A DNA stretch of 64,000 nt, taken from NCBI RefSeq assembly GCF_910592395.1, contig NC_088318.1, positions 7,278,756 through 7,342,755 on the forward strand, written 5' to 3'. The DNA is from Lineus longissimus. Lineage: Eukaryota > Nemertea > Pilidiophora > Heteronemertea > Lineidae. The position numbers and the translations under genes are program-made. The notes beneath the pieces were generated by a model. That model saw nothing but the letters and a program-made list of their open reading frames with translations, did no database searches and was not told the DNA's origin. Positions 1-23,363 of the stretch are shown piece after piece (position 1 is the stretch's first letter; the number at the start of each line of letters is the position of its first letter).

Positions 1-302
1 TTTTCCAATTTCTTATGACAAGAATTGCAACGTTCGGCGTCCAACTCGAAGTAATTTTCTTGCGGGTATGGCCGGTGACAGCGTTTGCATTCGCGAAACG
101 ATCTCTGCTGACATTTATAACAAAACGGTTTGCCCTCCATTAGAAAGGAGTAAGAAGAACACCAATTACACCTCTTTTTTACGTGTTCATAATCGGTGTC
201 GGAATTGAAATGTTCCTCATCAGTCTCCGTGTGTTTTACTTTCGCTTTACGCTTCCCAACCTTTGGCGTTGCTTTTGCGCTGCTCGGCAGTTCTTTGGCC
301 AT
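1..302 (-). CDS. Cys-rich zinc-binding protein of the virus-like cluster (partial)
   Basis: This open frame starts at an ATG at 302 and runs off the window after about 100 codons with no stop. The first 45 residues are basic and acidic with many Lys. After that come four CxxC pairs at residues 45/48, 61/64, 72/75 and 92/95, a spacing that suits two four-Cys zinc sites. A short CHRPYP stretch follows the third pair. Zinc binding is inferred from the Cys pattern; the biological role is unknown. It lies 90 bases downstream of the deoxynucleoside kinase on the same strand, so it looks like the next gene of the cluster. No break is visible in the part present. Confidence 0.6.
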   Translation of the reverse strand, partial: MAKELPSSAKATPKVGKRKAKVKHTETDEEHFNSDTDYEHVKKRCNWCSSYSFLMEGKPFCYKCQQRSFRECKRCHRPYPQENYFELDAERCNSCHKKLE

Positions 303-391
303 CTTGTCTTGTAATAGTATTTAAAACTAAGGTGGTCCTAAGGGAGGTTATATCCTGCACAGTTATAGACATCATTTTCTCTTCTCACATG

Positions 392-1150
392 CTACTTTTC
401 ACTGTTTTTAATAGTGTCCTGTATGAGATCTAGCAGCTCTTTCGGGCTTGGCTTGGCACTCTCCTTTAGGGCAATGTTGCACTCGCCCCATGCTCCTGTG
501 CAAATTTCGTGGTTTTTCCATTTGGCCAGGTGCCTTTGGTAAGTGGCTTTCAGGGCTTCTTGATACGAATAGGTTACCGGATTTGGTCCGCTGCACTCGA
601 AATCTCGACCACGTCTTGCGAGACGTGCCATACAGATGTCTGTTGGCGTGTTCACCAAGTAGATACCGTGCATCTGAAGTGCTAGCATTTGCATTGTCTT
701 CTCCGCCTCTGTCATCGCAAAATCGATGAGGAAATCTCTTGAGAAACAGCTTATTCTCCCAAGCTCGAATAAGGTTTCGACGAAGGGGAGGGGCGAAAAA
801 AGGCTCCGATCCGTGACGATTATTGTAGTGTTCTTTTCCCTCTTCTCCATCGCTAACTTGTTCAAAAGATGAGGAACTGTCTCTCGGACGACTCTGGTGA
901 GCGACTGGACAAAATGGATGTGGGCTAGGGGATCCTCCATCAAGGGATTCTCGCAACACATTCTGAACGGGTTGTGTCCCTGAAACGAGGTGAACTCGTC
1001 CAGGCATTCCCTTATGCTAACAATATTGAAGGGTAGATCGTCGCCGTGGAAGGTAGCCATTTCTTGTATTTGATCTATGATGGTTGTTTTGCCGGCTGCG
1101 ATTATACCCTCGAACATGAACATAAAGACATTTTCGGCATGACGACTCAT
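392..1150 (-). CDS. Deoxynucleoside kinase (thymidine kinase-like, dNK family)
   Basis: This intact 252-residue ORF has the hallmarks of the dNK/TK2 family, which phosphorylates deoxynucleosides to monophosphates with ATP. The P-loop is at residues 15-22 (GxxxxGKT), a DRS motif is at 114-116, and an Arg-rich lid (RLARRGRDFE) is at 176-185. The length is normal for the family. The ATG at 1150 lies 13 residues before the P-loop strand, which suits an enzyme with no targeting peptide. There are no introns and the neighbours are compact minus-strand virus-like genes, so I read it as a viral-type salvage enzyme working with the dUTPase at 19800, rather than a host gene. It is one of the few undamaged genes in the cluster. 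A retrogene of a host dNK is the alternative. Confidence 0.85.
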   Translation of the reverse strand: MSRHAENVFMFMFEGIIAAGKTTIIDQIQEMATFHGDDLPFNIVSIRECLDEFTSFQGHNPFRMCCENPLMEDPLAHIHFVQSLTRVVRETVPHLLNKLAMEKREKNTTIIVTDRSLFSPLPFVETLFELGRISCFSRDFLIDFAMTEAEKTMQMLALQMHGIYLVNTPTDICMARLARRGRDFECSGPNPVTYSYQEALKATYQRHLAKWKNHEICTGAWGECNIALKESAKPSPKELLDLIQDTIKNSEK

Positions 1151-1276
1151 CCTTATATGAATAATATGCTTAATATATGGTTTTATGAACTATATGTTAC
1201 AATGCGTGTGCTGGACTATAGAGACAGTCTTTGCTGTACAATGTAAAGTTTTTCTAGTAAATTCTCTTGTCACATG

Positions 1277-1955
1277 CTACTTATCACAATCTTCAATAGG
1301 CTCACAAGGGGATGGTGTAGCTTCAAACTCCTTTACAAAATCCTGTGGCTCCGTAGATACACTGTCTACCCCGTCGAAAAAGTCTTGCTCGTGTTTTCCT
1401 TCCACATGAGCGCAACAAATAAGAGTGCAGTGAACGTCTTCCATGTCACTTTTCACAGACGGGCTAATCGTTTGCGTTGTGTCGCGGCGACTAGTACCAA
1501 CTCGAAACGAGAGTCCCCTCGCTGTGGGGAGATTCCTGCTCTTCGCTCTGTTCGCTTTCACTGCTTTCCTCGTATTTTCTTTTTCTTCCTCTCGTTTGGG
1601 GAGCTTTTTTAGCATCGCCGGCCTGAAAAAACTCATCCTCCACATTTTGTTCTTCGTTTTGTCTACTACGAAGCTCTGCTCTCTGCTGTTGCCCCTTTCC
1701 TCTTCCATCGCCTTCTCCGTTTTGCTGTTCTGCTTTGAAATCCTTGTAACTAGCCTTCTTCAATTTCTCCACGTTCATCAAAAAATCTGCGATGTCTTCC
1801 CCAAGTAAACTGATGCCCTTTTGACGATTATTCTTCAAATAGAGGTGAAACCAGGTGTCACCTTTAAATCTCGTCACATCAACGTTGCACCGTTTGCCGA
1901 CTGCTATAGTGCAGCGTATGTTTTTTGTACTTCTAGTATTCTTTGTCGAACTCAT
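1277..1955 (-). pseudogene. PC4/Sub1-like ssDNA-binding protein with acidic C-terminus, frameshifted
   Basis: An ATG at 1955 opens a 154-residue frame that stops at 1491. Residues about 15-70 resemble the PC4 (transcription coactivator p15) fold: a beta-rich stretch with KGDTWFHLYL, then KGISLLGEDIADFL where PC4 proteins have a conserved KGISL-type motif before the helix. A Lys, Gln and Glu-rich tail follows. A second frame (1708-1277) overlaps the end and carries an acidic, protein-like tail ending at 1277. The simplest reading is one gene with a frameshift near 1495-1500. PC4-like proteins bind single-stranded DNA and act in transcription or replication. A second PC4-like ORF is at 8448-8708. 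The family call is moderate because PC4 domains are short. Confidence 0.5.
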
Positions 1956-3885
1956 GTTGCGGCGAGATGCGTCTAATACACTTATGGATATTTGTCCTTG
2001 TCACAATGTGATTCCCTGACTTCTTTACTCGTTTTTGATGCGGTAGTGTCCAAAGGCGAATGTGTGAATGTTATCTTCGCACAGCTAGCGTTTCGTGTCC
2101 AATGGTGACAAAGCTTTTTTCTCTTGCGTTAATGTATAAAGCTTTAGTTTTTTCGACCTAATCGATTTAAAATTACACGCACTGGGTGCCGCTTGTGAAG
2201 ATGTGTTCATGTATAGCGCATCTTCGTACTGCTCAAAGCCAATGCTTTGCATAACGCATCTTGGCAAACCCTTGGCCTTGCTGGTGACTGCCTCCGACCG
2301 ATGTCTTGTGCTTTACATTTTGGCACGCAAACCAACAAAGTCCACAATGGGATTGCAGGCATCCTCTCGCTTGAAAGTACCTCGAACTTTTTTGTTCGTT
2401 TCGCAGAAGTAGGGCGAGTCTTTCGGATAATTAAACAGATCGAAATAGCGTCGGTTCGCGAAGAAGTCCTCGTCCACGTTCCCCTCATATTCTTCTAAGA
2501 AATACAGCAGGCTATCCGTGTCCGTCATCAACAGGTGGCACCGGTCCCCATACAATGGCTTAATGAAGTCATAGTGAATTTTGTACAATTTCATTTTGCT
2601 TGTTTCGAGACAGACCATTCCCGCTGTGATTAGACGATCCAGAAGTATGCCGCGGGGTTTCATTTGTATGCCTACCAGTTTCCTATTGTAAATGGTTACT
2701 GACTTGAAATTTGGTTTGCTCGTTTTTATTAGGAATTTTCTCTTGTCCGACACTAGACTCATATTGATGTGCTTTGTTTTGTCTTGGAGGAATTTCCCGT
2801 AGCAAGAATTAATTGTTTGTGAGGGATCCATTAGTTTTCCCGCCAAAACATGCATTAGCGGACTCCACTGCGAAGGGCATATGCACAGTTTCTCTGGCGC
2901 TAAAGGAAAGTCATTGTGCGAATCGTGTAGACAAGTAGGATATTCGAGGTCCACCTCCAGTATGTATTCTGTAGTGCTATCGTCTGACAAAGACAAAACA
3001 TCAAATTCGTTCGGGTCGTCAACCTCGATCCAGCGATAATTTCCTTGCGGTAAATCTTGACTGAGGGAGTAGCAGTAGAGGTTCGTCGCGTCGAGGGCAA
3101 ATATCTGCGCGCCACTCTTCTTGTCTGCTTCTCCTGAAAATACCCCCTTCTCTTCAACAGCATCATCATCGTCAACAGATATGTGGGCCCGTCGTTGGAA
3201 AATGGAAGCGACACCTCCACGAATGCCTTTTTTGACGAACAGATATTGCTCCAGGTCTTCTATCAAGTCTATATGAACTCTTGTCATTTTGAGCATGGCA
3301 TCGAATGTCATGTGAGGGGCCGATATATATTTTACTGGATCTAATTGAAAAAATTGTTCATGGACATGGCACGAAATTTCTCAAAACAATCGGTTAGTAG
3401 TAAAACGTCTGTTTGGAGATAGACTACAAGATAATCACCAAGGGTCTTGCAGTTCATTGTTCGCCATACCTTTGTTGCATGCTCGTAATCCTCCGATGAA
3501 ATGGGTTGTTTTTTTAGCGAATCGAAAAATGCCTCGACCGGCGGAAGCTGCCTCTCTTGAAGTTTTGATGGCCTGTCCAGATATTCGTAGCAAAAGACAC
3601 CCTTGCGCAACAAAAGATCGTACATTTCACTCGATCCTTTCACGTATTCGGAGAGGAGAGGAAATGCGCTCTGGCTCTGCTTCATCCCACTTTCCGGGTC
3701 TACAATAGTGCTAGTCTTGTTTTTCATCAATTCCACTAGATTTGCTAAAGACGAGGGCAAGAATTGAAAACTATCCAGGAAGACTAACGTTTGACAATAC
3801 AATGTATATGGCCAAGTAGTGCTCTGTGTTTTTAGGCAATATCCGAAACTTTTTCGATTCTCCATCTTGTTTTGCCAATTCCTCT

Positions 3886-4780: not shown

Positions 4781-6778
4781 TTAAGTCAAGTTGCAACGAT
4801 TACAGAGGACGTATCGCATCCGATCCGCTTGCAAGTGACAATGGTCGATGCACTTTTTCACGCCTATAGTGAATTCAATGCCACACATCTCGCAATGCTG
4901 CTGCGAGACAAACTTCTTCCAATCACGCGAAGACATATGTTCAAGACTGTCTTTTGAACAATGCAAATCGATAATGTGCGCTTCCTCGATCTGTTCATTC
5001 AGCCATTCGAGAAATTTCTTTACACAATAGGTGAAGAGGGAAGAATTGTAATCGGGATTGACGCAGAGACGTTTTCCCGCTACCGCGATGGGGATATGGC
5101 GGCTTGAACCATCACTAAGAGTTGATTCGCATGGCGTAAGACAAGTTTCAAAATCATATATTATCAGGTGCCGTCTCGTGCACATGGCTTTGAAATTGTC
5201 GAATTTTCATTTGGCCTTTCCTCGGAAAGGTGTACACTTGGCCCGTATCTAGACAACATCTTTCATGAGCACGTTTTTTACTCTTTGAGGAATAGCAGGT
5301 CAAACACGATCTGCAAACGAATTTTTTCCCGTGGCGACCACTAGCTCCGTTGGCGATTAACCTACTCTGATTTGTGATCAGAAAAAAGTGATCTTGCCAG
5401 TACAACAAGTCAATAAGCTTCTCTTCCGGAATTGAGCTCCTGTTTGCTGAAAGATGCAGTACTTGAAACGGTACAGCATGACGTCCTGCTGTGCCAGCAA
5501 CTTCATGACTCTCGTTCGAAAGCCAACGAAAAACGTTAATGGAGAGGTAGTTCCGTCGTTCGAAAGTGGAAATCTGACCGATGCTAGTTGGATGGGAAAT
5601 ATTACTCAAATCGAGCTTCGGACGTCTTTCCCATGAATTCATGTCAAACTGCCTGTCCGATCTAATGCGACCTCCTGCCAGGCGTTCTGAGTGGGCCGCG
5701 ATACAGAACAAAAAATATTTCTCGTCATTTCCGTAATCAATGTTCGTCTGAATACAAGCGCGTTTATTTATCACCGCCGAGGGTGAGAAAGGATGTGGAT
5801 ACGAAGTGCCACCCCTCAGGGGCTCAAACTGTGCCACCGTTAATCTCAACGCGTTCACATGTTCAAAAACCCAGCCCGAACCTTCGTGTAGATAGGACTC
5901 GCATTTCGAAATGATTTCTTGAAAATCTGTCTGTAACAAGTCTTTTAATTGGCTCTTATAGAAAACTTGTTTTGTATTGGTGCAAAACCAGGGTTCCGAT
6001 GTGCGTTTCTCATATTGTCCCTCGATAATGGATCCATCATCTGCCACGACATCGACTTCTTTGCTGAATAGAACTTGAACCTCAAAGTGATACTTAAGAG
6101 CGTTCTTCGCGTCAGTTAGACTATCAAATTCCTGAGAAATGTGTTTATGAATAAGTCCGTTTGCCTCCCTGTGCAAAAACTTCAACAAATCATTTGCAAC
6201 GTGTATATTTGTGTGTTCCCATTGCGTTCCCAGATTGCCTCGGAATGATTTTTTTAAACGAAATTCTGCTTCGAGCGCCATTATCAGAGAGAGAAAGAGG
6301 TCCTAAAATAGACCTCGAAAATCACTAATTTTCAAGCCGTCCTGCCGCAAACGGGTATCGTCTCCGTCAACCTCTATCACTTTAATTCCTTTTTGTGTTT
6401 GCAGATGGCCTGGTGATCACTTCGGGCAACTACTCTAGTCTCGGCTTTTTATGGTGGGTTTGCAATATGCAGGCCATTCCCCTTCACAAACTACGGAGAG
6501 CATGGTTACTCACCGCTTTTGTGATGAAATGGCCAATCAGATGGCGGAGCAATGCCGAAGTGTGCTATGGTCGATTTCGCGGTTATGCTAAACACTCGGG
6601 CAGTTTGTTGAATCGCTCCTATGAGATAGATCTGACCTATGAGCAGTTCCGAAGTTCCAGTGTCAATGGTATTTCCAAAATTGGGTCCGGGGTGGTTTTT
6701 TTAGTTGTTTGTTATGAAAACGAGTGACTTTTAATAAATCAGTTGGTAATTGGTTTATTGTAATCACACAAAATTTAG

Positions 6779-7195: not shown

Positions 7196-7950
7196 CCCGC
7201 TAATTTGTCAAACGGAACTTCACATTTTTCACACTCGTCCCATGGCCTATTTGGGCCGTTATACAACATTTCGCCGCTGCATGTGCTTACTGTGTACATT
7301 ACCGAGTGACGTACTGCACATCTTAGCAATCTATGGGTAATAAGGTTCACGTTGGTGCATAAAAGTAGCGGTTGGCTTTTGTCCTTAGCGACGTTTGACG
7401 TGTTTAGAAAAAGATGGCCTGTGTTGAAACGTGTAAACAGGTTCCCCAATCATCCCCCTGGATCTATCTATCTATCTATCTCATTTCTTGTTTACCTCGA
7501 TGTGAAAAGTTCAATTCTGAATTGAGACTGTAGTCATTTCTTATGTTTAGAGAAAAATGCACCAAACGTTGTAATTTTAAAGAAAATTTAGACACCCAGG
7601 CAATTTATGGTTCATACTCAGAATGTAAAATTCGCGCATTTCTTTTGCGACACCCTGCATTATAGCATTAATTTTATTTATCGTAATAGCAGTGTGAAGG
7701 AAAACTTTCAATATTACAAACTGTATCAATTTCGGTCATACATTGAACATTAAAAGATTGGATGTAATGAACCATAACTTTCCCTGTGGCTCAATCAATT
7801 TCACAAGGACCGCGTCCCATGCTAGCAGTCACACGATCCAAATGTGAATGACAGACGTTCAGCCATTCATATGGTGGAGGCGGTCTCACATCACATTACT
7901 GGCTGGTGTAGGCGGTAGATAATGAACCCACCATAAAAAGCCGAGACTAG

Positions 7951-8475
7951 AGTATTTCTGACTTAGTATGTATGCAACAGACCTGCAAATAGGGCATTCG
8001 TTTTCGTGCAATGCTTTCAATAGATCTCCGTGGCAGCGCTCTGGTTTGCACCAACAGTCCAGAACTGCATGCGACAATTTGTGAATGTAACGGAGAAGAT
8101 TTCTCCGCCGTATGTAAGCTTACTCGTTATAAAACCTCAAAGAGCGTTCTCGGCTGGTATTTTCGTCAATTATGTACGGATTCTGCCATCCCTGATGGCT
8201 TGAAATAAGCGTTTCTGACATTTGCGTTGTTCTTCTGCAGTCATATTCGTATTATTCGTGCCACAGCGCAATATCTCCGAATCTCCAAGATAATGCGTCA
8301 AATTTCGTCCGATGTACACGTGTCGACGAGATGCTAACAGCCACTCTTCGAGATTTCGAAAGCCCATATTACTTAAATTGAGCGAAGAGATATTAATAAC
8401 ACGCCGCATGATATTTGAATATAAAGCTTTGATGAAATCCGACGGATTTAGGCGTCTGGTGTGCAAAAAGGACAT
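7951..8475 (-). pseudogene. DUF4326-type protein, decayed
   Basis: The frame from the ATG at 8475 gives the start of a DUF4326 domain, with GFRNLEEWLLASRRHVYIGR. The frame ending near 7960 gives its other hallmark, LDCWCKPERCHGDLL. Between them a third frame carries a WQNPY block. At least one frameshift (near 8280) and one in-frame TAA (near 8115) therefore break the gene. DUF4326 proteins occur in phages, large DNA viruses and bacteria; their function is not established. The original stop codon appears to coincide with the TA target of the pogo-like element. The start overlaps the end of the PC4-like ORF by 28 bases, as in compact viral genomes. Confidence 0.7.
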
Positions 8476-8708
8476 TCGATTGCTTCTTGTTGGTTCAAAT
8501 GATCACCTACGAAATGCAATTTTCTCTGAACTTCACCGTAGGCTCTTAAAAAGTTTCGAAATTCACGCAATTTGAGTGAAATTCGGCGGCACTTGTCCAA
8601 GCTTTGTATTTCTAGCCTATTCCTTCTGGTGAAATTAACAAGCAGTCCTAACTGCACGGAGCGAATAGTAATATTCTTCGTCTGAATGGTGTTGGCGCGA
8701 AAAAGCAT
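8448..8708 (-). CDS. Small PC4-like protein (second copy in the cluster)
   Basis: This intact 86-residue ORF starts at an ATG at 8708. Its core (residues about 15-55) is a beta-rich stretch, then CRRISLKLREFRNFL, which resembles the PC4 pattern of strands followed by an ISL-type motif and a helix. The tail has a CPFC pair. It overlaps the 3' end of the split ORF upstream and the start of the DUF4326 relic downstream. If the PC4 call holds, it would be a single-stranded DNA-binding factor. The domain is short and the call is by eye, so an unrelated small protein is possible. Confidence 0.4.
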   Translation of the reverse strand: MLFRANTIQTKNITIRSVQLGLLVNFTRRNRLEIQSLDKCRRISLKLREFRNFLRAYGEVQRKLHFVGDHLNQQEAIECPFCTPDA

Positions 8709-8840
8709 CTGTTAACTGTTCACTCATGCACAGCATCTCTTGGGCTTGTTCTGAAGTCAGATCGATGCGGTTTTCCGCGTCGAAGTTAATAAGCGATATT
8801 TTTTGCAACCGTGCGTTGATGGGTGCTGATATGCGGAGGG
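8635..8840 (-). pseudogene. 3' part of a small ORF split by the BEL/Pao element
   Basis: This frame runs from the left LTR border at 8840 to a stop at 8635. It is the continuation of the frame that begins at the ATG at 18018 on the other side of the retrotransposon. Removing one copy of the 5-bp target duplication leaves a frame of 279 bases (92 codons plus stop), which is open across the junction. The segment holds an INFDAENRIDLTSEQ-like stretch and a Tyr-rich region near its end. I do not recognise the family. Its only visible damage is the retrotransposon. Confidence 0.65.
8836..8840. repeat. Target site duplication GAGGG (left copy)
   Basis: GAGGG directly precedes the left LTR and is repeated at 17941-17945 directly after the right LTR. 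A 5-bp duplication is typical of BEL/Pao integration. Confidence 0.9.
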
Positions 8841-9707: not shown

Positions 9708-10222
9708 GTGAAATCTCTTATGTCCTTCGATACGTTTGGAAGATACAGAGAATGAGATCTCCACGTCGTGCGTTGGAAGATACCAATGAAATCCCCGGAT
9801 GGAAGCAGTCACGATCGATGCTGAACGAAGGATCGTCATAGTGTGATGTTGTCCTGGGAGTGTCTGCTTATCATTAAGGCTGATTGTTTGTGCATGTGCA
9901 CATAATATTATCGCATACCTGTCGTTTCATTGCGAATAGACTTGACTACCGTAAACTCTTGGTCAGTCTACTCAGTCAATTGTCTTATATGGACTGAACA
10001 TCCCACTTGCGATTGTGAACAGTCTCAACTACCACAACTTGAGTCAGACTACCTGGTATACAGAGACGTCTAACTGAAGTAGTGTGAACTGAACAGCGCG
10101 ATGAACACTAATAACTTGCATGGTGACAACAAGCATTGCTGATTGCGAACTTTGAAGAGACGTTTAATCCTCATTTTCTCAGACCTTCAAACTGACATTC
10201 TTCTTGAACACCTGATGTCCTG
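9708..10222 (+). other. 5' leader of the first BEL/Pao element
   Basis: This 515-base untranslated leader lies between the 5' LTR and the first ATG of the polyprotein. I could not recognise a tRNA-complementary primer binding site by eye. Confidence 0.6.
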
Positions 10223-13200
10223 ATGAGATGGTTTATGAACTTTGGACTCTCCTTGTGTACCCTTTTTCTAACATTTTCCTTATTTTTCAGCGTGGTCGGT
10301 GAGGCTCATCCCCTCGTGACGAGATCTGGCAGTGGTGACCATGGCCCTTTGCGTGATGCTACCTCTACATGCGGTTTGGTGAACTTTGGGATTGGTAATC
10401 TTAGAGTAGTTAGGGTAGTTACTAGGCCTACATGCACATTGCCATTTGTTGTTGACCCTTCATTCGACCTTGCGATGAATCGGTTACGGGAGTTGTGGTC
10501 GGGTACAACCCCCGAGAAGAAATCCTTTCAGGCTAAAGAGAGGGAGCTAAGGAGTGCTGTGTCGCAGTGGAGACGATGTGCAGCTTACGTTGATGCTTTG
10601 ACTGAAAATCATGGTGCGGCAGTTTTGAAAGCAGAGGGAGAGACTCTCACAGGTTATATGCGGCTGGTGGAGCAGGCTCACAAAGACTTGGAGTGTTGCA
10701 TCCAGGATCCAAGGGAGATCAACCAGAAGTTCGAGGAGTTGGAGGGCCACCACCACAATCTGATGTGTAGACTACACGCGATGGTGCGAGAGCTCGAGGG
10801 ATCGGCGACAGATAGGAAATCGGTCAAGAGTCGTAGCTCAATCAGCAGTGTATCCCGGAAGTTGGATATTGCAGCTCAGGCAGCCCAACTGAAGGCAAGG
10901 ATCAAGAATGTTGACAAACTTGCAGCGATCAAGGCGGAATTGGAGAAGACCGAGCTGGAAGCAGCACTTGATGTAGCAGAGGCGGAGATGATGGCTATCA
11001 ACTCGGTGGAGAAGCCTGGTGCCAGTGACCACGGTAATGGATCTTTACCTGAAATTGAGACACCCGCGGAGCGAAAGGCTAGAGTTGAAGAGTATGTTAA
11101 AAACCAGGACCCGCAGAGAGGAGTGTTTGTGGATCATTCCAGCAGCCAGGTTGCACCCCCTGTGGCCACTCCCCCTCAGGATAGGACTTTGAATGTGGAA
11201 GCACCCCCCTTTACCCCGGTGTCACCAAGGGGAAACGACCGAGAAATGGGATTGGAAGCAGTCATTTCCAAGTTTACAGAGCAAATAAATCTTTCACGTC
11301 TACCCACTCCGGAGCCAGCAATATTTTCTGGGAACCCCTTGGAATATCCAGCCTGGAACGCGGCTTTTGAGACCCTAATTGAAAGCAGAGGCATACCCCC
11401 GGCGGAACGGATGCACTACCTTAAAAAATACCTAGGCGGACCAGCGAAGGAGGCGGTTGAGGGATATTTCTTCCTGTCAGAGGTGGATTCTTTCAGCGAG
11501 GCAAGGAAAATCCTAAAGAAACGTTTTGGTGATCCGTTTGTTATAGGAAATGCTTTTAGGGAGAAATTAAAAGCCTGGAAGGTTGTTGAATCGGGCGATG
11601 GACCAGGATTGCGGAAATTGGCGGACTTTCTACGTCAATGCGCGGCCGCCATGAGAGTGGCCAAATACACACTCGGAATTCTAAATGATAAAAGAGAAAG
11701 TATGGAGATTTTGAAGAAGCTCCCCAATTGGCTTGCAAGCCGTTGGAATCGTAGTGTTTATAGATGGGTCAAGAGTCGGAGGGAGCGGGCTACGAGAGAA
11801 GGGACCCCTTTGGAAGAGGTGCCAGACTACCCCCCCTTTGAATTTTTCTTGGAATTTATGGAGGAAGAAGCAGAACTGCAATGTGATCCGGTGACGTCAA
11901 TTGGTGCATTGAGGAAACCAGGAACAGAAAACAAGAGGCTGTCCAACACCAAGGTGTTCACGAAAGGGACAGAGGCTAGAGCCTTAGCTACTGGCACTAC
12001 AGGAGCTATTGGGGGAAATGCAGGACACACTGGGAGCTCAGTTGTCAAAAGCTGCCTTTTCTGTAAACAGAGTCACGACTTGGATTCTTGTGGGAAGCTT
12101 CAGAAAGAACCAATGAAGAAACGAAAAGACTTCATTTTCAAGAATGGTGTTTGTTATGGATGTTTAAAGAAGGGTGCCCATCGTGCGAAGGATTGTAAAA
12201 ACCGGATCAAGTGCCGTCAGTGTCAGAAGCTTCATCCTACCATCCTACATGGGGACCAGAAGACTGATCCTAAGGAGACACAGAAACCGGAACCCGGACG
12301 AGACCCCCCGACAGAAGAGGCGACGACCCAGAAAAACGTGGTGCATGGCCAGGGGAAGAGTAAATCATCAATGATCTTGCCAGTGTGGTTATCGCATGAG
12401 GACAAACCAGGTGAGTATATGACCTACTGTATGTTAGACAGCCAATCAGACACTACCTTTATCTTGGAGCAGACTTTGAGTAAACTGGACATGAAAGGAA
12501 CCCCTACTAAACTGAACTTGTCCACCATGTCTAAGGAGAGACAGACAGTGGAGACTAGCAGGGTGAAAGGACTTCTTGTGAGAGGACTAAACAGTGAGCT
12601 CAAGATCAAACTTCCTGCTACTTACACACGCGAGATCATGCCGTCGAATCGCGACCATATTCCAACACCAAGCATCGCACGTGAATGGCCACATCTATGT
12701 GACATAGCAGAAAAGTTTCATCCCCAGCAATCTTGTGAAGTTGGTTTGTTGATAGGCTACAACTGTGCCAGAGCTTTGACACCGAGAGAGGTTGTTTGCG
12801 GAGCTGGTGATGAACCCTTTGCCCAAAAGACGGACCTAGGATGGGGAATCGTGGGCAATGTAGGACCAAGCAAGAATCCGGAGGATGTTTTCGGAACTAG
12901 CCATTGTCTCAAGACCTTCGATACTCAGTCGGATAAGTTGGTTTTGGCTGTCCAGACAATGAAGATTGATGAGGACCCTACCCCGAAACAGTTGTTCGAA
13001 GTGTTGACAAGGGACATAAAGTATGGAGATGAGGGTGAGGACAAGATGTCACAGGAGGACAGGAAGTTTCTTAATATATTGGAGGAAGGCATACATCGGA
13101 CCAAGGATGGACGTTATGAAATGCCACTCCCTTTGAAGACACCTGCCCCTGTTTTGCCCAACAACAAATCCCAGGCAGAGAAGCGTCTCAGACAATTGAG

Positions 13201-14758
13201 AGCCAGGTTGAGCAAGGATGAGACATATCGGACCAAATACACAGACTTCATGAATGATATGCTGGATAGCGGACATGCTTCAAAAGTTCCTCAGGATGAA
13301 GTAGACTCAGATAATCCAACGTGGTATATCCCGCATTTTGGAGTTGTCAACCCTGAAAAGAATGACAAAGTGCGCATCGTCTTCGATTGTAGTGCACGGT
13401 ACAAAGACACATCACTGAATGATAATCTGCTCCAAGGACCAGATCTTACAAACAGCCTCCTAGGAGTACTTATGCGGTTCCGGCAGGAGCCAGTGGCACT
13501 TCAGTGTGACATCAAGAAGATGTTTCTGAATTTTAGAGTGAACCCTGAACACAGAGATATGTTGAGATTCCTGTGGTGGCCAGACGGAGACTTGGAAAAG
13601 GAACCCACCATCTACCGTATGAATGTACACCTATTTGGAGCGACTTCGTCCCCAGGATGTGCCAATTTTGCCCTGAGACGTATGGCAGAAGACTACGAAG
13701 ATGAGTTTGGCTCCGTCATTTCAGATTTTGTGAAAAGGAACTATTATATGGATGATGGAATAGGTTCGACCAAAACCGATGAGGAGGCAAGAGGATTGTT
13801 CACTAAGAATAAAGCCATGTGTGGAAAAATAGGCCTGGAACTCCACAAAGTATTGTCTAATTCACCAGGAGTGATGCAGAGCATCGCAAAGGAAGATTTG
13901 GCACAGGGAGTAAAGGATCTGGATCTGTCAGTAGATACCCTACCTATAGAAAGGACACTAGGAGTATTTTGGTGCATTGAAAAGGACATCTTTCAATTTC
14001 GGATCACTTTAAAAGACAGGCCCTTTACTAGGAGAGGAGTATTGGCGACCATTGGATCAGTCTATGACCCTCTAGGGATGGCAGCGCCTGTTGTTCTTGT
14101 GGGAAAGAGGATCTTACAGGAGCTGTGTGCGGATGGGGCTGATTGGGACGACCCTCTCCCAGAGAATTTGCGAGCAAAATGGGAGACCTGGAGGTCTGAC
14201 CTATTGGATTTGGAACATGTGAGCATGTCCAGATGTTACAAGCCTCAGGATTTTGGAGAGCCGAATCTAATTCAACTGCATCACTTCTCAGATGCAAGCC
14301 AGCAAGGGCTAGGACAGTGTTCTTTCCTTAGGATGGTAAACTCTCAAGGCCAGGTGCACTGCAGCTACGTGGTGGGAAAAGCCAGGGTGACACCTATCAA
14401 GACAGTGACCATGCCCCGTCTGGAGTTAACAGCAGCGGTGATGTCAGCCAAGGCATCAGTCACACTTGGCAAAGAACTGGACTATAAAGTAGCAGATGAA
14501 CTTTTCTGGACGGATAGTCAAATCGTGTTAGGATATATCGCCAATGAGGCTAGGAGATTTGGTGTGTTTGTAGCAAACCGAGTTCAGCAAATAAAGGATC
14601 AGACAGAAACTGAGCAGTGGAAACATGTGAGAGGAGAGGAGAATCCTGCTGACGAAGGGTCGAGAGGTCTAACAGTGGAGGAAATGAAGGAATCCAAATG
14701 GCTAAAGGGACCCGGATTTCTCTGGGAGCAGGAGCTCCCCAAAAACACCATGACATGA
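10223..14758 (+). CDS. BEL/Pao polyprotein: gag, protease, reverse transcriptase, RNase H
   Basis: This 1511-codon ORF makes the capsid and replication enzymes of the retrotransposon. In order: a hydrophobic N-terminus (residues about 8-30) that looks like a signal or membrane segment; a charged helical gag (to about 580); zinc knuckles with C-x2-C and CYGCLKKGAHRAKDC near 610-680; an A17-type protease with LDSQSDTTF near 737; RT with CDIKKMF near 1097 and YMDD near 1174; and RNase H with FSDAS near 1355, LELTAA, WTDSQ and NPADEGSRG. The protease triad reads DSQ rather than the usual DSG or DTG. A TGA at 14756 ends the ORF in frame with the integrase that follows, so it is most likely a nonsense mutation in a single long polyprotein. 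A later Met could be the true gag start. Confidence 0.93.
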   Translation: MRWFMNFGLSLCTLFLTFSLFFSVVGEAHPLVTRSGSGDHGPLRDATSTCGLVNFGIGNLRVVRVVTRPTCTLPFVVDPSFDLAMNRLRELWSGTTPEKKSFQAKERELRSAVSQWRRCAAYVDALTENHGAAVLKAEGETLTGYMRLVEQAHKDLECCIQDPREINQKFEELEGHHHNLMCRLHAMVRELEGSATDRKSVKSRSSISSVSRKLDIAAQAAQLKARIKNVDKLAAIKAELEKTELEAALDVAEAEMMAINSVEKPGASDHGNGSLPEIETPAERKARVEEYVKNQDPQRGVFVDHSSSQVAPPVATPPQDRTLNVEAPPFTPVSPRGNDREMGLEAVISKFTEQINLSRLPTPEPAIFSGNPLEYPAWNAAFETLIESRGIPPAERMHYLKKYLGGPAKEAVEGYFFLSEVDSFSEARKILKKRFGDPFVIGNAFREKLKAWKVVESGDGPGLRKLADFLRQCAAAMRVAKYTLGILNDKRESMEILKKLPNWLASRWNRSVYRWVKSRRERATREGTPLEEVPDYPPFEFFLEFMEEEAELQCDPVTSIGALRKPGTENKRLSNTKVFTKGTEARALATGTTGAIGGNAGHTGSSVVKSCLFCKQSHDLDSCGKLQKEPMKKRKDFIFKNGVCYGCLKKGAHRAKDCKNRIKCRQCQKLHPTILHGDQKTDPKETQKPEPGRDPPTEEATTQKNVVHGQGKSKSSMILPVWLSHEDKPGEYMTYCMLDSQSDTTFILEQTLSKLDMKGTPTKLNLSTMSKERQTVETSRVKGLLVRGLNSELKIKLPATYTREIMPSNRDHIPTPSIAREWPHLCDIAEKFHPQQSCEVGLLIGYNCARALTPREVVCGAGDEPFAQKTDLGWGIVGNVGPSKNPEDVFGTSHCLKTFDTQSDKLVLAVQTMKIDEDPTPKQLFEVLTRDIKYGDEGEDKMSQEDRKFLNILEEGIHRTKDGRYEMPLPLKTPAPVLPNNKSQAEKRLRQLRARLSKDETYRTKYTDFMNDMLDSGHASKVPQDEVDSDNPTWYIPHFGVVNPEKNDKVRIVFDCSARYKDTSLNDNLLQGPDLTNSLLGVLMRFRQEPVALQCDIKKMFLNFRVNPEHRDMLRFLWWPDGDLEKEPTIYRMNVHLFGATSSPGCANFALRRMAEDYEDEFGSVISDFVKRNYYMDDGIGSTKTDEEARGLFTKNKAMCGKIGLELHKVLSNSPGVMQSIAKEDLAQGVKDLDLSVDTLPIERTLGVFWCIEKDIFQFRITLKDRPFTRRGVLATIGSVYDPLGMAAPVVLVGKRILQELCADGADWDDPLPENLRAKWETWRSDLLDLEHVSMSRCYKPQDFGEPNLIQLHHFSDASQQGLGQCSFLRMVNSQGQVHCSYVVGKARVTPIKTVTMPRLELTAAVMSAKASVTLGKELDYKVADELFWTDSQIVLGYIANEARRFGVFVANRVQQIKDQTETEQWKHVRGEENPADEGSRGLTVEEMKESKWLKGPGFLWEQELPKNTMT

Positions 14759-16399
14759 GATGTCACGCTCAGTCCTGACGACCCAGAAGTTAGGAAAGCC
14801 TGTGTTCATGCTGTGAGTGCAGAGGAGACAGGACCCAGCCCCCTAGATGACAAATGGCTCAGGAGATTTTCAAGTTTAGGAAAGGCCAAGAGGATTCTAG
14901 CGCTGTGCTTGAGTTTCATTCAAAGATGCCGAAATAAAGCCAAGGGGACAGATGGACATGGACCGGTAGTAAATGTAGCAGCCTTGGAGGAGAGCGAGAG
15001 AGTTCTTGTCAGGATTGTGCAAAACGAAGCGTTTGAAGAAGAAATACAAGCTCTCAAGAAGGATGAGCCCAATGGAATCAGAAGGACCTCTCCCCTCTAT
15101 CATTTGGATCCATACTTGGACAAAGAGGGAATTGTCAGGCTGGGTGGCAGATTGAGGAGAGCAAAAATCAGCCACAAGCACCCCATCATACTACCCAAGA
15201 AAAGTCAGTTGGGAAAACTGGTTGCATATCATCACCATGAAAAATGCGCTCACGGTGGCCGTGGGATGACCATAAATGAGATCCGGGCAAATGGTTACTG
15301 GATCCTAGGCATCAGAACTGCAGTGTCTCCATTAATCCATAGATGTGTAAGATGTAGGAAGGCAAGACGCAATGTTGAAACTCCCAAGATGGCTGACCTA
15401 CCCGTGGATAGGATAGAGGCAGGGGAAGGACCTTTTGAGTGTTGTGCCCTTGATATTTTCGGACCATGGACTATCCGGGAAAAGAGGAGTGATCTGAAAA
15501 GATATGGTCTGATGATAACTTGTTTGGCTGTCAGGGCAGTACACATAGAAACATTGAACTCCATGACAACGGATAGTTTTATCAATGCCTTGAGACGATT
15601 CTGTGCTATCAGGGGTCCGTGCCGTTTGATTCGGTCAGATCGGGGCAGCAACATAGCAGGGGCAGATACGGAGTTGAGAAAAGCTTGGGAGGGTATGGAC
15701 CACGAGAAAATACGGGACCATCTACTTACAGAAGGGGTTGATTATCATTATATGATGCCTAAGTTTGAGATGAGCTTCCCTAAGTCCAGTCATATGAATG
15801 GCGCTGTCGAGAGACAAATCCGAACAGTACGAGCAATCCTGAACCAGCTGTTGCAAAATAGAGCCCAACAACTGGATGATGAGGCGATAAGGACCCTCAT
15901 GGCTGAGGCAATGGCAATCGTCAATTGCAGGCCATTGACAGTGGAAAATTTGGAGGATCCGGGATCATTGCGCCCATTGACCCCAAATCACATACTTACG
16001 ATGAAGTCAAGACCAGTACTCCCCCCACCTGGTAACTTTGAGAAGGCAGACTTGTACTTGGCGAAGAGATGGAGGCGTGTGCAGGTTCTAGCTGAGGAAT
16101 TCTGGGACCGATGGAGGAGAGAGTTCATTTTAAATCTTCAGCAGCGTCGGAAATGGTGTGAATCCCGTGAAAATCTTCGAAAGGGAGATATTGTAATCGA
16201 GAAGGACGAAGATGTACCTAGAAACTGCTGGAAATTGGCGCGAATTACAGAAACCCACCCCAGTGAAGACGGCATAGTGCGCAAAGTTACGATTGTCACC
16301 GGAGACCGGAATCTGGCCCATGATGGGAGACGAGTCAAACCATTGGTAAGTTATGACAGGCCAGTGACCAAGCTGGTCCTTCTGTTGTCGGAAGAGTAA
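14759..16399 (+). CDS. BEL/Pao integrase region (after an in-frame TGA)
   Basis: The same frame continues after the TGA; the first ATG is at 14813 (528 residues). An HHCC zinc domain is visible (H-x-H...C-x2-C, with CVRCRKAR). A DDE core follows, with Asp in ALDIFGPW, Asp in IRSDRGSN and Glu in NGAVERQIRTVRA. The C-terminal end has the basic RRxWxxxRENLRKGDIVI type domain seen in BEL/Pao integrases. It inserts the cDNA copy into the genome. No internal damage was seen. On its own it lacks the normal N-terminal context, so function would need read-through or complementation by another copy. Confidence 0.92.
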   Translation, partial: DVTLSPDDPEVRKACVHAVSAEETGPSPLDDKWLRRFSSLGKAKRILALCLSFIQRCRNKAKGTDGHGPVVNVAALEESERVLVRIVQNEAFEEEIQALKKDEPNGIRRTSPLYHLDPYLDKEGIVRLGGRLRRAKISHKHPIILPKKSQLGKLVAYHHHEKCAHGGRGMTINEIRANGYWILGIRTAVSPLIHRCVRCRKARRNVETPKMADLPVDRIEAGEGPFECCALDIFGPWTIREKRSDLKRYGLMITCLAVRAVHIETLNSMTTDSFINALRRFCAIRGPCRLIRSDRGSNIAGADTELRKAWEGMDHEKIRDHLLTEGVDYHYMMPKFEMSFPKSSHMNGAVERQIRTVRAILNQLLQNRAQQLDDEAIRTLMAEAMAIVNCRPLTVENLEDPGSLRPLTPNHILTMKSRPVLPPPGNFEKADLYLAKRWRRVQVLAEEFWDRWRREFILNLQQRRKWCESRENLRKGDIVIEKDEDVPRNCWKLARITETHPSEDGIVRKVTIVTGDRNLAHDGRRVKPLVSYDRPVTKLVLLLSEE

Positions 16400-17064
16400 G
16401 TAGGTCCAATGCTTGCCTAATCATGGCTCCTGTGAGCGATTCATTGCTTGGCTGTCTGATAGGGTTGGCACTTTGGTAGTTGCATGTAGGTCAGTCTTCC
16501 CGGCTGCTTTCTTTGGGGTAGTAATAAGTGAGTTGCTAGTAAGAGAGGACATGAATTATGTCATTGTTTAGTTACCCTGAGTCTACAGTGAAATTTGAGT
16601 TGCAGGATGAGCTCCTGTAATCCGTCACCTCTGCCAGGTCCGTCAGAAAGGGGTGAGTATCTTTTTCTGGTTAGTCATTTATGATGTATAGCATGAATCA
16701 CTTTGGGGAGCCGAGTTCTCCTTTTCAACAGTGTTTAGGTTGCTGAACTGGTAGTGATTTTGCTGTAAAGATCACCTCCAGGTCACAGCCTGCCAAAGTT
16801 GGCATCACTTGTTGTCTTGTGATAGATATCAAACTTACAGCATAGTTGTGATGTTACGAAACTGTCATAGCGATTGCAATTTGCCAAAGATAATCAGATT
16901 TTAGGTTCAGTACAACTTAAAGCTGAACCGGGTTTTGTTTTTCTAGTCTTTCTATTTTGTTCAGCGAAAGTTTAAAGCTGAACTGGTTGTAAATATGTTT
17001 TGGTCTAAGGTTACGATACTTTTGTTACCCTTTCTGTGGATTAAAAAAAATCATAGATGATTTT
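16400..17064 (+). other. 3' untranslated part of the first BEL/Pao element
   Basis: 665 bases between the integrase stop and the polypurine-like stretch. No ORF of note was seen. Confidence 0.6.
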
Positions 17065-17073
17065 GGAGGGGTG
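17065..17073 (+). other. Polypurine tract-like sequence GGAGGGGTG
   Basis: A purine-rich run directly before the 3' LTR, where the plus-strand primer of LTR retrotransposons lies. Confidence 0.55.
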
Positions 17074-17940
17074 TGTAGTTGCGCTTCAATAATTTGAAAG
17101 TGCGCCCTGGTGCGAAAACTTCCGGATACGGAACCTAGGTGATTGCGCGCATGCGCTCTGGGCATTAGCCATTGTTTGCGTTTTTTGTCCCAGCGTCCCA
17201 GCGGGACTCCTTTTAAATACACGAATTTGAGACAATCCAAGAGGTATGTTGGCATTGTGCTAGGCCTACGTGAAAGATTAATATGTACAGATCTCCCGTA
17301 TCTTGTCCGCAGAATATGACTTTTGGTGCAGCTCGAGTATTTGAGAACTTTGTGAAGCGAACCTGTCTTCGACAGGCCCACATTTTTTCCCGCCACTGAC
17401 GCGTGAGAGTTTTCAGTAAAACCCCTGGTTTATCGCCCTTTTGAGGCGGGTTTCATGTATTTTGTCACGGTCTATGCATGCCTGACGTTGCTTACTGAGA
17501 ACCCCAGTATGTTTTTTAGTGCCTGTTTTTGTCAGAAACGAGTATTTAGCCGAAGCCATGCTCTATTTCTTGAGGTCACGTGACCGCGCACTTCTGGCCA
17601 TTTGCTTTGGATAGTTCGCCACTAGGGTTGTAGATGGCACCACTGAGCCTTAGAGAATTTCTAAGAGAAACTTTGGTTTTTCTTGCTAACCTTGCTGTAG
17701 TTTTGGAGACTACCCTCTTATAGAAAATCTTGTAGCCTTTGATGAACCTTTTGCCTTATTGTATTGTATTTGTTTGGTTACAGATTTCACGACTCCTTTT
17801 GTACCGACTCTTTGGAGCGGATTGATGTTAACTCATGATATCACCAGCATTTGAGCAAATAAAGACCAGTCTTTATAGTAACCATACGAGTCCGTCGAGT
17901 CCTTGGAACCAGATAGTCCCTGCTGGGTGCTGCGGCCACA
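17074..17940 (+). repeat. 3' LTR of the first BEL/Pao element
   Basis: 867 bases, the same length as the 5' LTR and matching it by eye. It is followed by the GAGGG duplication at 17941-17945. Confidence 0.93.
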
Positions 17941-18109: not shown

Positions 18110-18481
18110 CTAGTGGCGCCGCTGGCGTCGAATGTGTAATGTCACAATGACTTTACCGAATTTAAAATCGATTAGATTTCCCGTATCGTCGCAAATGTTA
18201 ATTTCTATGAATTGAAAAAACTTTGCACTCAGGGGTCTGTAGCGTATTCTTTCAAACGATTTGGAGAGATATTTGCCGTGTTCTTCCGGGCGTGTGGGTA
18301 TCGTTCGTAGCAAGGGGACAAAAACGTTTCCCACTTCTGTTGGCTTTACTAAATTCGAGTAAAAGAATAGTGCATACTTCGAGGACATCAAATCACATTT
18401 TCGTTCCGCTACAACGCGATAAAAACGCCTCGACAGAGGGGGTAAATTCACGGCTGCCTGATCTCCTTGTAAACTAGACGT

Positions 18482-18513
<32 letters not shown>

Positions 18514-19192
18514 TACTTTCGTCTGACCTGCCAAAATCATCGCTTGTAAAAGTGCGATCGGTGTTCCCTCCTTCGGAACTTTTTTTGCCCACAAGAGGGC
18601 CCGCCGTCACTGGGTTTCCTTGGCCGAATGTTCCCCCAATACTGTCTTTGCCAACAGTGTGTACTGGTGTCGTTTTCTTAGCCTTAGAATTACTCTTGGG
18701 TATAATAATTTTTCCATCGACGTGAAAATATTTCGCCTTCGCAAAACCGAGCACTTCTGCTAAGTAAGTGTCCATCAAAATGGCTTCGCCGTGTCTCAGT
18801 TTTATGGCTACGTGTTGGCCCCGCGTGAGAAGAAAATCACCGCTCCACTGAACTGGTTTCTGTCTATTTAGCGCCGTTATCAAATCTTCAATTGACGAGA
18901 CTCATTTTTCGCTCTGCGCGCAGGCATCAAGCAATACGGGCGCTTTGTCGGGTTCGTTTAAATCTGCCAGCGCTATCTGGTAAGTACACCTCTTAACGTT
19001 GATCTCGCTCGACCAAGAATGTGCGTAGTAGACCTCCGCGATGCCACATTCGTATGCAAAAGGCGACATCGTGAAATCGAGCGGCTTCGCCAAAGGAATC
19101 CTAAAATTCGAACTAGTGTTGGGCCGACTTCCCCTTTGTACGGGCGTATTTGAGGGGCACACGATATACGTATCTTGTTCCTGCTCCTCCAT
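18110..19192 (-). pseudogene. Conserved structural-like protein of the virus-like cluster, one nonsense codon
   Basis: The ATG at 19192 opens a frame that meets a TGA at 18902-18904 and stays open in the same frame to 18110 (about 360 codons in all). The N-terminal part has PNTSSNFRIPLAKPLDF and later AEVYYAHSW. The C-terminal part has FFYSNLVKPTEVGNVFVPLL and IEINICDDTGNLIDFKFGKV. From memory, this pattern is shared by uncharacterised proteins found beside DNA_pol_B_2 genes in many invertebrate genomes; I infer a virion or structural role but cannot show it. A run of nine GAT codons (18482-18508) gives an acidic Asp tract in the middle. The TGA may be a point mutation; two separate proteins are the less likely alternative. 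Confidence 0.6.
18482..18510. repeat. ATC/GAT trinucleotide run encoding an Asp tract
   Basis: An uninterrupted run of ATC/ATG-type triplets on the plus strand reads as poly-Asp in the minus-strand structural-like gene. It is part of the coding frame and also a likely slippage-prone microsatellite. Confidence 0.85.
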
Positions 19193-19263
19193 TTGGTCAC
19201 GATTAAAGTAAGCTATCCTTGAAATATTCTTAGTAAATGGTAGGCGTCTAGCTATTGTCTCAG

Positions 19264-19722
19264 TTAGATTTTGACGTAGTAAGACCCTTCCTCTGGTACG
19301 AAACAGAATATATCTTGCATGGCGCGATAGGCGACAAGATCTATTTGTAAACCCGAACGAAGGATAGAGTAACTCTTCTCTTGTGTTTTCTTTCTTTCAT
19401 CAGGAGATGTGTTCTTTCTTATCAATTGTTTGCTTACTAATGATTGCAACGAAAACAATAAAAGATCAGGTAGTGCAAAAGCTCTTTGCATCGTCTTCCA
19501 ACAGGGACAGTCGACTCTACATAGGGGGCAGAGATTCCCAAAATGACAGACACGTTCTAATACATCTTTGATCGAAGTCAAGGCAAAATCTGGACATCGG
19601 CAACTCTTATTTAGCCTACTAGTATAATGCATGTCTGATGCCGCAGTAGACTTTAGTGAACGGCTCCACCCCAAATCATGGGGCTTCTTTTTCAAAACAT
19701 CAGAGGAGAATTGTGCTCTCAT
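19264..19722 (-). CDS. Unrecognised Cys-rich ORF of the virus-like cluster
   Basis: This intact 152-residue ORF starts at an ATG at 19722 and lies between the dUTPase (78 bases upstream) and the structural-like gene (72 bases downstream), all on the minus strand. Residues about 41-75 hold CRCPDF and later CHFGNLCPLCRVDCPCW. This cluster of Cys with C-x2-C and C-x-C spacing could bind zinc. The rest is basic and helical. I do not recognise a family. Its placement and intact length suggest a real gene rather than a chance frame. Confidence 0.5.
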   Translation of the reverse strand: MRAQFSSDVLKKKPHDLGWSRSLKSTAASDMHYTSRLNKSCRCPDFALTSIKDVLERVCHFGNLCPLCRVDCPCWKTMQRAFALPDLLLFSLQSLVSKQLIRKNTSPDERKKTQEKSYSILRSGLQIDLVAYRAMQDIFCFVPEEGSYYVKI

Positions 19723-19799
19723 AGTGACAACAACACAACTGTACTTTGAGCGTTACATTTGGATGGTCCGTTTTTATCACAAGCTCATTTCACGGCTTC

Positions 19800-20312
19800 T
19801 TAATTTCTCGTAGAATAGCCGCCAGTTGATCCAAAACCGCCTTGGCCGCGCGGGGTTGAGGGCAATTCATCTTTGGATTCTCGAATACGTGGTATAAGGG
19901 CTCTTTCGCAAATAAGTTGGGCCACACGATCGCCGTGTCGAATACGAAATTCGTTTTGCGGATGATGATTGAATAGCAAAATACCCAAATTGCCTCTAAA
20001 ATCGGAATCGATTACACCTGCGCCTACGGCTATCATATAGTTTAAGGCTAGACCTGAGCGAGGCGCGATTCGACCATAACACGCTCTCGGAAGAACGAGT
20101 TGTAAATCTGTGCGGACAAGTTGCGAGCAACCGGCCAAAATCGTGTAGTCATGGGCGCTAGCCAGGTCAAAACCCACTGAATGTGCCGTCGCCCTTTCCG
20201 GAGCAGAAGCTAAGTCACTCAATTTGTGAAAAATGAGTGTTTCAACTTCATCATCATCATTTTTTTCATCCACAATCTTTGGTCTATAGAATAAAAGTTG
20301 TTCGTCTGACAT
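19800..20312 (-). CDS. dut: dUTPase (trimeric dUTP nucleotidohydrolase)
   Basis: This 170-residue ORF hydrolyses dUTP to dUMP and pyrophosphate, keeping uracil out of DNA. All five motifs of the trimeric family are present: AHSVGFDLASAHD (43-55), PRSGLAL (84-90), GVIDSDFRG (99-107), GDRVAQLIC (127-135) and the C-terminal glycine-rich RGQGGFGSTG (155-164). In motif 3 the usual Tyr before RG is Phe. I chose the ATG at 20312; the frame is open further upstream to 20372 but without an ATG. An acidic insert (EKNDDDEVE) lies near the start. It heads the minus-strand cluster and pairs with the kinase at 392-1150 in nucleotide supply. No lesion seen. Confidence 0.92.
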   Translation of the reverse strand: MSDEQLLFYRPKIVDEKNDDDEVETLIFHKLSDLASAPERATAHSVGFDLASAHDYTILAGCSQLVRTDLQLVLPRACYGRIAPRSGLALNYMIAVGAGVIDSDFRGNLGILLFNHHPQNEFRIRHGDRVAQLICERALIPRIRESKDELPSTPRGQGGFGSTGGYSTRN

Positions 20313-23347: not shown

Positions 23348-23363
23348 TGATAACAGAAACATC

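Follow-up and report, generated by a model that had tools for sequence, protein, structure and literature searches.

Polintons (Mavericks), which form a link to giant viruses, carry terminal inverted repeats that begin 5'-AG and are flanked by a 6-bp target-site duplication. The adintoviruses, according to a passage in PMC11071296, were defined by Buck et al. through a PolB with an OTU-like domain, a Hexon, and an rve integrase with a chromodomain. Passages of PMC8363768 describe three Drosophila-associated adintoviruses of 13.3-14.6 kb, two of them near-complete, and present the bidna-like viruses (the Drosophila Vesanto virus group) as multi-segmented single-stranded DNA viruses.

A gene cluster at the left edge of a 64,000-nucleotide stretch of the Lineus longissimus genome (the window; Table 1) is almost certainly part of a degraded chromosomal Polinton/Maverick copy, an adintovirus-like preplasmiviricot. 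Its likeness to Polintons and Mavericks (animal adintoviruses, Orthopolintovirales) takes in PolB, an rve integrase with a C-terminal chromodomain, a penton-base protein, weaker matches to the A32 ATPase, adenain, and protein X, inverted repeats and, in a sister copy, a 6-bp duplication. The overall kind of element is already known; unlike Polintons and Mavericks, this one carries a deoxynucleoside kinase (dNK), a dUTPase, a DUF4326 protein, and a possibly PC4-like ORF, and its extra dNTP-supply genes are the unusual part. The window copy continues past the dUTPase to ~26229 and spans ~36 kb, a 9.1-kb LTR retrotransposon included, which judging by its motifs is probably BEL/Pao-like. Two sister copies measure 23.9 and 24.4 kb from terminus to terminus, against the range given for the Drosophila-associated adintoviruses in PMC8363768. 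At least 22 places in the genome belong to this lineage, in addition to other Polinton families.

Table 1. Features of the element and of its later insertion, in window coordinates
Feature	Positions	Strand	Evidence
Cys-rich (zinc-like) ORF by dNK, 100 aa, open at window edge	3..302	-	ORF list
Deoxynucleoside kinase, 252 aa, uninterrupted	392..1150	-	PF01712 9.4e-10, passes Pfam cut-off
Small ORF, possibly PC4-like ssDNA-binding protein	1491..1955	-	PF02229 E 0.098, 12.6 bits, cut-off 25
Putative PolB palm piece, internal stretch missing relative to sister copies	2313..3380	-	sisters match as two pieces ~200 nt apart
Putative PolB piece, other frame	3341..3883	-	DNA_pol_B_2 0.002, below cut-off
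Putative PolB piece with Endonuclease VII-like part	4781..5206	-	PHROG endonuclease VII 3.6e-05; relative PF02945 2.1e-06
Putative PolB N-terminal piece	5154..6281	-	aligns at 36% over 336 residues with PolB region of two elements from another family
DUF4326 C-terminal half	7886..8119	-	PF14216 6.5e-07, passes Pfam cut-off; part at 91% in L013
Small ORF, possibly DUF4326 N-terminal half (by eye)	8170..8475	-	91% in L013; no Pfam match of note
Small ORF	8448..8708	-	89% in L013
Small ORF interrupted by LTR retrotransposon	8635..8838	-	97% in L013
Later insertion, outside element proper: 9.1-kb LTR retrotransposon	8841..17940	+	identical 867-nt LTRs, target duplication GAGGG
Penton-base-like protein, C-terminal piece	18110..18901	-	homologues P0001-P0016; predicted fold of a relative
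Penton N-terminal piece, ended by in-frame stop at 18902-18904	18902..19192	-	sister comparison
Cys-rich ORF, 152 aa	19264..19722	-	7/7 sister upstream pieces
dUTPase, uninterrupted	19800..20312	-	PF00692 2e-36, passes Pfam cut-off
Plus-strand ORFs inside element, two in-frame stops	22643..24422	+	ORF list
Right terminal inverted repeat, ending AGTAGTAGG read inward	25684..26229	-	inverted match to L009:1125-240, pieces 86-96%

Three of the assignments made in a first-pass annotation of the cluster (dUTPase, deoxynucleoside kinase, and DUF4326) pass their Pfam cut-offs. The kinase was recovered in six of seven sister downstream pieces, 58-100% covered, and a PDB sequence search with it at E 0.01 returned nothing useful. 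Relatives (29-32%) follow PolB at the equivalent position in three elements from two other families, the two scanned with Pfam giving 7.8e-18 and 3.3e-07, and this shared placement suggests that the kinase is old in the lineage. The neighbouring zinc-like ORF, which has no confident Pfam match, is present at full length (94-96%) in four of seven sister downstream pieces and, at 38-39%, in two elements belonging to another family of Polintons; it accompanies the kinase in two of the three related elements, while the third stretch stops short of its place. Two ORFs had been called PC4-like. For the one near the kinase, found in all seven sister downstream pieces, that identity is only suggestive: two of three relatives scanned matched PF02229 (0.033 and 0.034), and the third matched nothing. 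PDB sequence searching with PC4-like sequence gave nothing useful. For the ORF at 8635-8838 the label was dropped, with support from neither PDB nor Pfam. The dUTPase, found in six of seven sister upstream pieces, is of the eukaryotic type by PDB ranking: its better matches include a fly gene and one from shrimp, and the best is presumably human. It was not found in the related Polintons L039, L041, and L043 when 3-4 kb on the upstream side of the penton were covered. The Cys-rich ORF beside it weakly matches sequences of two other Polintons (E 6e-04 and 1.7e-04).

We tentatively propose that these genes may define an old animal Polinton branch with a nucleotide-supply module of its own, in which the kinase, a PC4-like ssDNA-binding ORF, and the zinc protein lie between polymerase and integrase and the dUTPase was added in one family; such a module would uncouple DNA copying from S phase in the host and would mark the element as a virus, infectious and recently active, and not simply as a transposon. 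The placement of kinase relatives after PolB in other families speaks against regarding dUTPase and kinase as passenger host genes, recently caught and useless to the element, as does the count of in-frame stops in the projected rows, from which frameshifts are excluded (none of seven for the dUTPase, one of seven for the kinase). We consider the passenger explanation doubtful, although the eukaryotic type of the dUTPase, its not being found upstream of the penton in three related Polintons, and dN/dS values only mildly below 1 (0.61 for the dUTPase, 0.68 for the kinase) are in its favour. In two of six sister copies for the dUTPase and three of six for the kinase, the tblastn match is split into two pieces, a sign of frameshifts.

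The type-B polymerase named in the first-pass annotation is probably present as broken pieces, an identity supported by Pfam matches of individual pieces that stay below threshold (Table 1; 4.5e-05 in a second PolB relic) and by a related element elsewhere in this genome, in which Endonuclease_7 (2.1e-06) lies above and DNA_pol_B_2 (3.7e-04) below the cut-off. No relevant Pfam match was obtained with the N-terminal piece, PDB sequence searches with the PolB pieces gave nothing useful, and a protein search with the N-terminal piece retained 0 of 1181 candidates, a null expected for a fragment query under the length rule. What had been listed separately as a structural-like protein and a small split ORF (18110-18901 and 18902-19396) is one gene with a single in-frame stop, which is missing in all six sister copies checked, other copies having stops elsewhere. 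Its product is a predicted penton base, assigned from homologues and the modelled fold of a relative, and a capsid protein therefore lies inside the window. Integrase, packaging ATPase, and major capsid had been reported missing. Indeed, 92 ORFs, out of 154 in the window that reach 75 aa, were scanned and none matched any of the three, because the window edge cuts the element.

Extension to the left of position 1 (stretch L009) recovered an rve integrase core (1.8e-11, L009:9430-8891) and, C-terminal to it, a chromodomain (PF00385 1.4e-05; PF11717 1.6e-09), the two occupying different frames in the window copy. An ATPase-type ORF (Pox_A32 5.7e-04, 19.9 bits against a cut-off of 22.8), protein X, and a protease-type ORF (Peptidase_C5, adenain, 0.0091, 16.1 bits against 21.3) all match below Pfam cut-offs, and their identities lean on synteny too. 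The major capsid candidate (L009:4068-2858) was picked by place and size, its larger piece having no Pfam and no PDB sequence match. The element ends in inverted repeats: AGTAGTAGG was found at both ends of the C11 copy, and the terminal 20-mer in seven of nine end stretches, one C7 end being slightly different and the fetched C6 end lacking it. The terminal repeats of the C7 copy are 99.0% identical over 630 nt; their presence at both of its ends led us to reject the view of 25684-26229 and L009:240-1125 as mere interspersed repeats. Among the three copies examined at both ends, C7 has a 6-bp target duplication (CCCACC/CCCACC), C19 matches at five of six positions, and the hexamers flanking the window copy differ (CGTCAG/AACTTC). 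Another PolB relic borders the window copy on the right only; this, together with the unmatched hexamers, suggests that its ends may derive from different copies.

The integrase-chromodomain gene, the inverted repeats, and the duplication in a sister copy overturn the earlier view that the cluster does not simply match a classical Maverick. They also bear on whether a segmented bidna-like virus or linear plasmid-like element, with pPolB, kinase, and dUTPase but no Polinton morphogenetic module, was integrated by chance. A passage of PMC11071296 does report thymidine-kinase-like and dUTPase-like genes on bidna-like segments, so that PolB alongside such genes is a shared trait, and the 92 window ORFs scanned gave no match to integrase, ATPase, or major capsid; the penton fold, the inverted repeats, the 6-bp target duplication and, on the same strand, the integrase together with less secure matches to ATPase and protease nevertheless make this origin very improbable. 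In contrast to the multi-segmented bidna-like viruses, the locus is a single integrated element with penton and packaging-type genes. Of the earlier suggestion of a little-described DNA virus or linear plasmid-like element, the endogenous, DNA-virus-like part stands and the plasmid part falls. Mavirus-like virophages and adenoviruses differ in that the element here is integrated and multicopy in an animal genome, has an integrase with chromodomain, and carries an Endonuclease VII-like part in its putative PolB.

The Polinton/Maverick copy is organized on one strand, as first described: across 1-6300 plus 17946-20400, ORFs of at least 90 aa cover 7785 nt of the minus strand and 699 nt of the plus strand, and 0 of 500 shuffles reach the observed same-strand content (mean 284, maximum 2277). 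Gaps of about 70-130 bases hold at three junctions (77, 71, and 89 nt) but not at two more (340 and 357 nt). The predicted recurrence of gene order was borne out within this genome, the order being consistent in the stretches seen around all seven sister copies and the penton lying upstream of PolB at 19 of 22 places; downstream exceptions are L027, with extra protease and capsid pieces, and L026, where the only match is an integrase at 32%. That unrelated host genes came together by chance, favoured only by the eukaryotic type of the dUTPase, is scarcely credible in view of the shuffles, the same one-strand order at seven other places, and the termini. Beyond the dUTPase, the window copy shares 99.2-99.3% identity with copies on C6 and C7. 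These data demonstrate the gene content, order, termini, multiplicity, and recent spread of the element. The window copy itself looks dead, because its penton and polymerase are broken and its integrase and capsid candidate are in pieces in different frames.

No relative was confirmed in IMG/VR (queries: the kinase, two PolB pieces, a PolB pair alignment, and penton alignments) or in GTDB genomes (one penton alignment). Literature searches combining polintons, dUTPase, and integrase found no such element in the passages covered, and earlier reports of such cargo are possible; polinton with deoxynucleoside kinase turned up only algal viruses, and adintoviruses with thymidine kinase only PMC11071296, whose passage concerns bidna-like segments.

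By analogy with the families involved, replication would proceed from the terminal repeats by a protein-primed type-B polymerase, and the integrase would insert the element with a 6-bp duplication, its chromodomain helping in site choice. The ATPase would package the DNA; the capsid around it would be built from major capsid and penton proteins and undergo maturation by the protease. Kinase and dUTPase could keep dTTP high and dUTP low, making copying less dependent on host S phase, and displaced single strands may be the target of the PC4-like ORF. A branch of Polintons in which the kinase is conserved, with a dUTPase in one family, would connect the nucleotide metabolism of larger DNA viruses with small viruses that integrate. 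It raises the question of whether animal cells that are not dividing support replication of such elements, which the many places of this lineage and the other Polinton families in the genome open to comparative study.

In window 1-6300 together with 17946-20400, 7785 nt fall within minus-strand ORFs 90 aa or longer; shuffled controls average 284 nt and peak at 2277 nt (0/500 reached 7785 nt). The one-strand ORFs of window 1-20387, described in the first-pass annotation, exceed chance by far, and its calls of a dUTPase (Pfam 2e-36), a deoxynucleoside kinase (dNK; 9.4e-10) and DUF4326 (6.5e-07) were confirmed. The type-B polymerase (PolB) that it named has family matches, weak and in pieces, in a gene broken into four. 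One of its two PC4-like ORFs (1955-1491) retains a weak match (E 0.098, below the Pfam cut-off), three relatives scanned giving 0.033, 0.034 and no match; the PC4 identity of 8838-8635, unsupported in sequence searches, was dropped. The cluster is split at 8840 by a 9.1-kb LTR retrotransposon, presumably BEL/Pao-like, that on its sequence is a very recent insertion.

The absence of integrase and packaging ATPase noted in that annotation reflects the window edge: in the 10 kb directly to the left (L009), the gene series goes on along the same strand. Extension in this direction, proposed as a search for capsid, ATPase and terminal repeats, yielded an integrase core, a chromodomain and a terminal inverted repeat, together with a sub-threshold ATPase match and a capsid candidate whose larger piece (3733-2858) had no match in Pfam or PDB sequence searches. 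The ATPase, protein X, protease and capsid assignments are based on gene order and conservation in sister copies. By eye, a plus-strand ORF adjoining the capsid candidate resembles a piece of a retroelement.

Features in the window and in L009, the stretch directly to its left
Feature	Position	Strand	Match or remark
Polymerase pieces	6281-5154, 5206-4781, 3883-3341, 3380-2313	minus	weak family support
LTR retrotransposon	8841-17940	plus	identical 867-nt LTRs; target duplication GAGGG
ORFs within the Polinton	22643-24422	plus	no confident Pfam match; N-terminal part duplicated at 22161-22329
Second PolB relic	26251-27292	plus	frameshifted; 44-59% aa identity to 2313-2990
Lys-rich ORF	L009:9894-9442	minus
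Integrase core	L009:9430-8891	minus	rve 1.8e-11
Chromodomain piece	L009:8745-8272	minus	Chromo 1.4e-05, Tudor-knot 1.6e-09; frame other than integrase core
ATPase match	L009:8105-7350	minus	Pox_A32 5.7e-04, below Pfam cut-off
Protein X match	L009:7078-6776	minus	Adeno_PX 0.0086, below Pfam cut-off
Three further ORFs	L009:6795-6262, 6261-5572, 5391-4948	minus
Capsid candidate, two pieces	L009:4068-3718, 3733-2858	minus
Protease match	L009:2781-2371	minus	Peptidase_C5 0.0091, below Pfam cut-off
BEL/Pao-like element, by eye	49974-57657	minus	terminal repeats ~618 nt, 97.9% identity
Inverted pair	45990-49351		3.4 kb, 94% identity; Harbinger-like ORFs by eye
Pogo/Tigger-like fragments, by eye	6386-7449, 61500-62796		one between PolB and DUF4326
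Probable rhodopsin-type GPCR exon, placed by eye	~29560-29890		7tm_1 1.3e-05 among window ORFs

For the Pogo/Tigger-like fragments, DDE_1 and HTH_Tnp_Tc5 matches occur among the window ORFs.

The limits of the element lie at window 26229 (right) and L009:240 (left), both marked by an inverted repeat starting AGTAGTAGG. The terminal 20-mer is exact in seven of the nine end stretches examined, the right end of the C7 copy differing slightly and the C6 stretch lacking it. Past the dUTPase, the window copy and those on C7 and C6 are alike for at least 3.5 kb (99.2-99.3%); the others show lower identity or interruptions, with similarity to the C15 copy ending after 1.1 kb. The window copy spans 35,990 bp, of which the LTR element accounts for 9,100, compared with 24,379 bp on C7 and 23,923 bp on C19. 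On C7, inverted repeats (99.0% identity over 630 nt) are flanked by a perfect 6-bp duplication, CCCACC; the C19 flanks read TAAAGT/TACAGT. The chromodomain-bearing integrase, the inverted repeats and the duplication of the sister copy identify the element, by its features, as a Polinton/Maverick, overturning the earlier view that it does not simply match a classical Maverick. As far as its features were examined, it also fits the adintoviruses in the sense of Buck et al. (PMC11071296). The window copy itself has flanks CGTCAG/AACTTC, with no 6-bp duplication, and its right inverted repeat adjoins the second PolB relic while its left flank does not run into one; its two ends may therefore come from different insertions or a rearrangement. 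The element seems to lie in, or to be joined to, the polymerase gene of another Polinton.

A search of the genome (391 Mb, 30 contigs) with PolB piece 2313-3380 gave 201 matches; the window itself occupies C11:7278756-7342755. Among those listed, places of at least 78% identity, merged by hand, put the lineage at no fewer than 22 places including the window, and 19 of the 22 (a lower bound) have a same-lineage penton no more than 25 kb upstream in the same orientation. Stretches around seven sister copies, unequal in reach, were checked by tblastn: upstream they hold the dUTPase (6/7), the Cys-rich ORF beside the penton (7/7) and the penton N piece (6/7), and downstream the PC4-like ORF (7/7), dNK (6/7) and the zinc ORF beside it (4/7). 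Wherever both neighbours are visible the order is constant, and it thus recurs within this genome. One stretch (L015) begins too near the Cys-rich ORF for the penton to show; others pass straight from the PC4-like to the Lys-rich ORF (L022), have a partial dNK followed by integrase (L018), or have their genes spread out (L021). Two downstream stretches carry additional protease and capsid pieces (L027) or integrase alone, at 32% (L026); integrase, ATPase, capsid and protease are seen in only some copies because the stretches differ in reach. Pairwise nucleotide identity, gene by gene over ten gene pieces, is 95.0-100%, and the spread is recent. Distant pentons (~34-37%, frames of 271-272 aa), numerous across the genome, probably represent another abundant Polinton family.

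Polintons of other families, picked from the PolB list, were examined in short stretches. C9 and C1 both repeat the order PolB, PC4-like, dNK, zinc, integrase; their dNK matches are full-length, at 29-30% identity (E 3e-34 and 3e-31). On C8, PolB is followed by a PC4-like ORF and a dNK (32%, truncated by the stretch end); on C4 the stretch stops at the PC4-like ORF. The two pairs, C9/C1 and C8/C4, were counted as two families by their differing PolB-to-penton layout. Two dNK relatives exceed the Pfam cut-off (7.8e-18, 3.3e-07). No PC4-like, dNK or zinc cargo was found in a C15 downstream stretch or in two stretches on C14 from a family at 35% identity, and no dUTPase upstream of the penton in stretches of three related Polintons (L039, L041, L043). 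Judged by these sequences, the cargo is old in part. The dUTPase is of eukaryotic type (top PDB match 1.4e-44), making its capture from an animal plausible. An ORF upstream of the penton of a related Polinton (L039:2320-3249; SOCS box 2e-04, ankyrin 0.0054, both sub-cut-off) is possibly captured cargo.

Pooled dN/dS values give weak evidence of constraint: dUTPase 0.61, dNK 0.68, penton C piece 0.34, zinc ORF 0.30, and penton N piece and Lys-rich ORF 1.04-1.14. The tblastn match is split in two for dUTPase in two of six sister copies and for dNK in three of six, indicating that several are frameshifted.

In preplasmiviricot pPolBs, terminal-protein and vOTU domains are reported along with inserts of homing endonucleases (PMC11071308); the Endonuclease VII-like match in PolB may be the counterpart of those inserts. 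In the literature searched, no Polinton with a deoxynucleoside kinase was described, nor, among the papers examined for it, one with a dUTPase.

With penton and polymerase broken and integrase and capsid candidate frame-split, the window copy is probably incapable of copying assisted by nucleotide supply. Going by the protein families, replication would be protein-primed from the repeat ends, the rve integrase would insert the element at sites targeted by the chromodomain, and virions would form. The most likely effect of the kinase and dUTPase would be increased dTTP and removal of dUTP while the element is copied.
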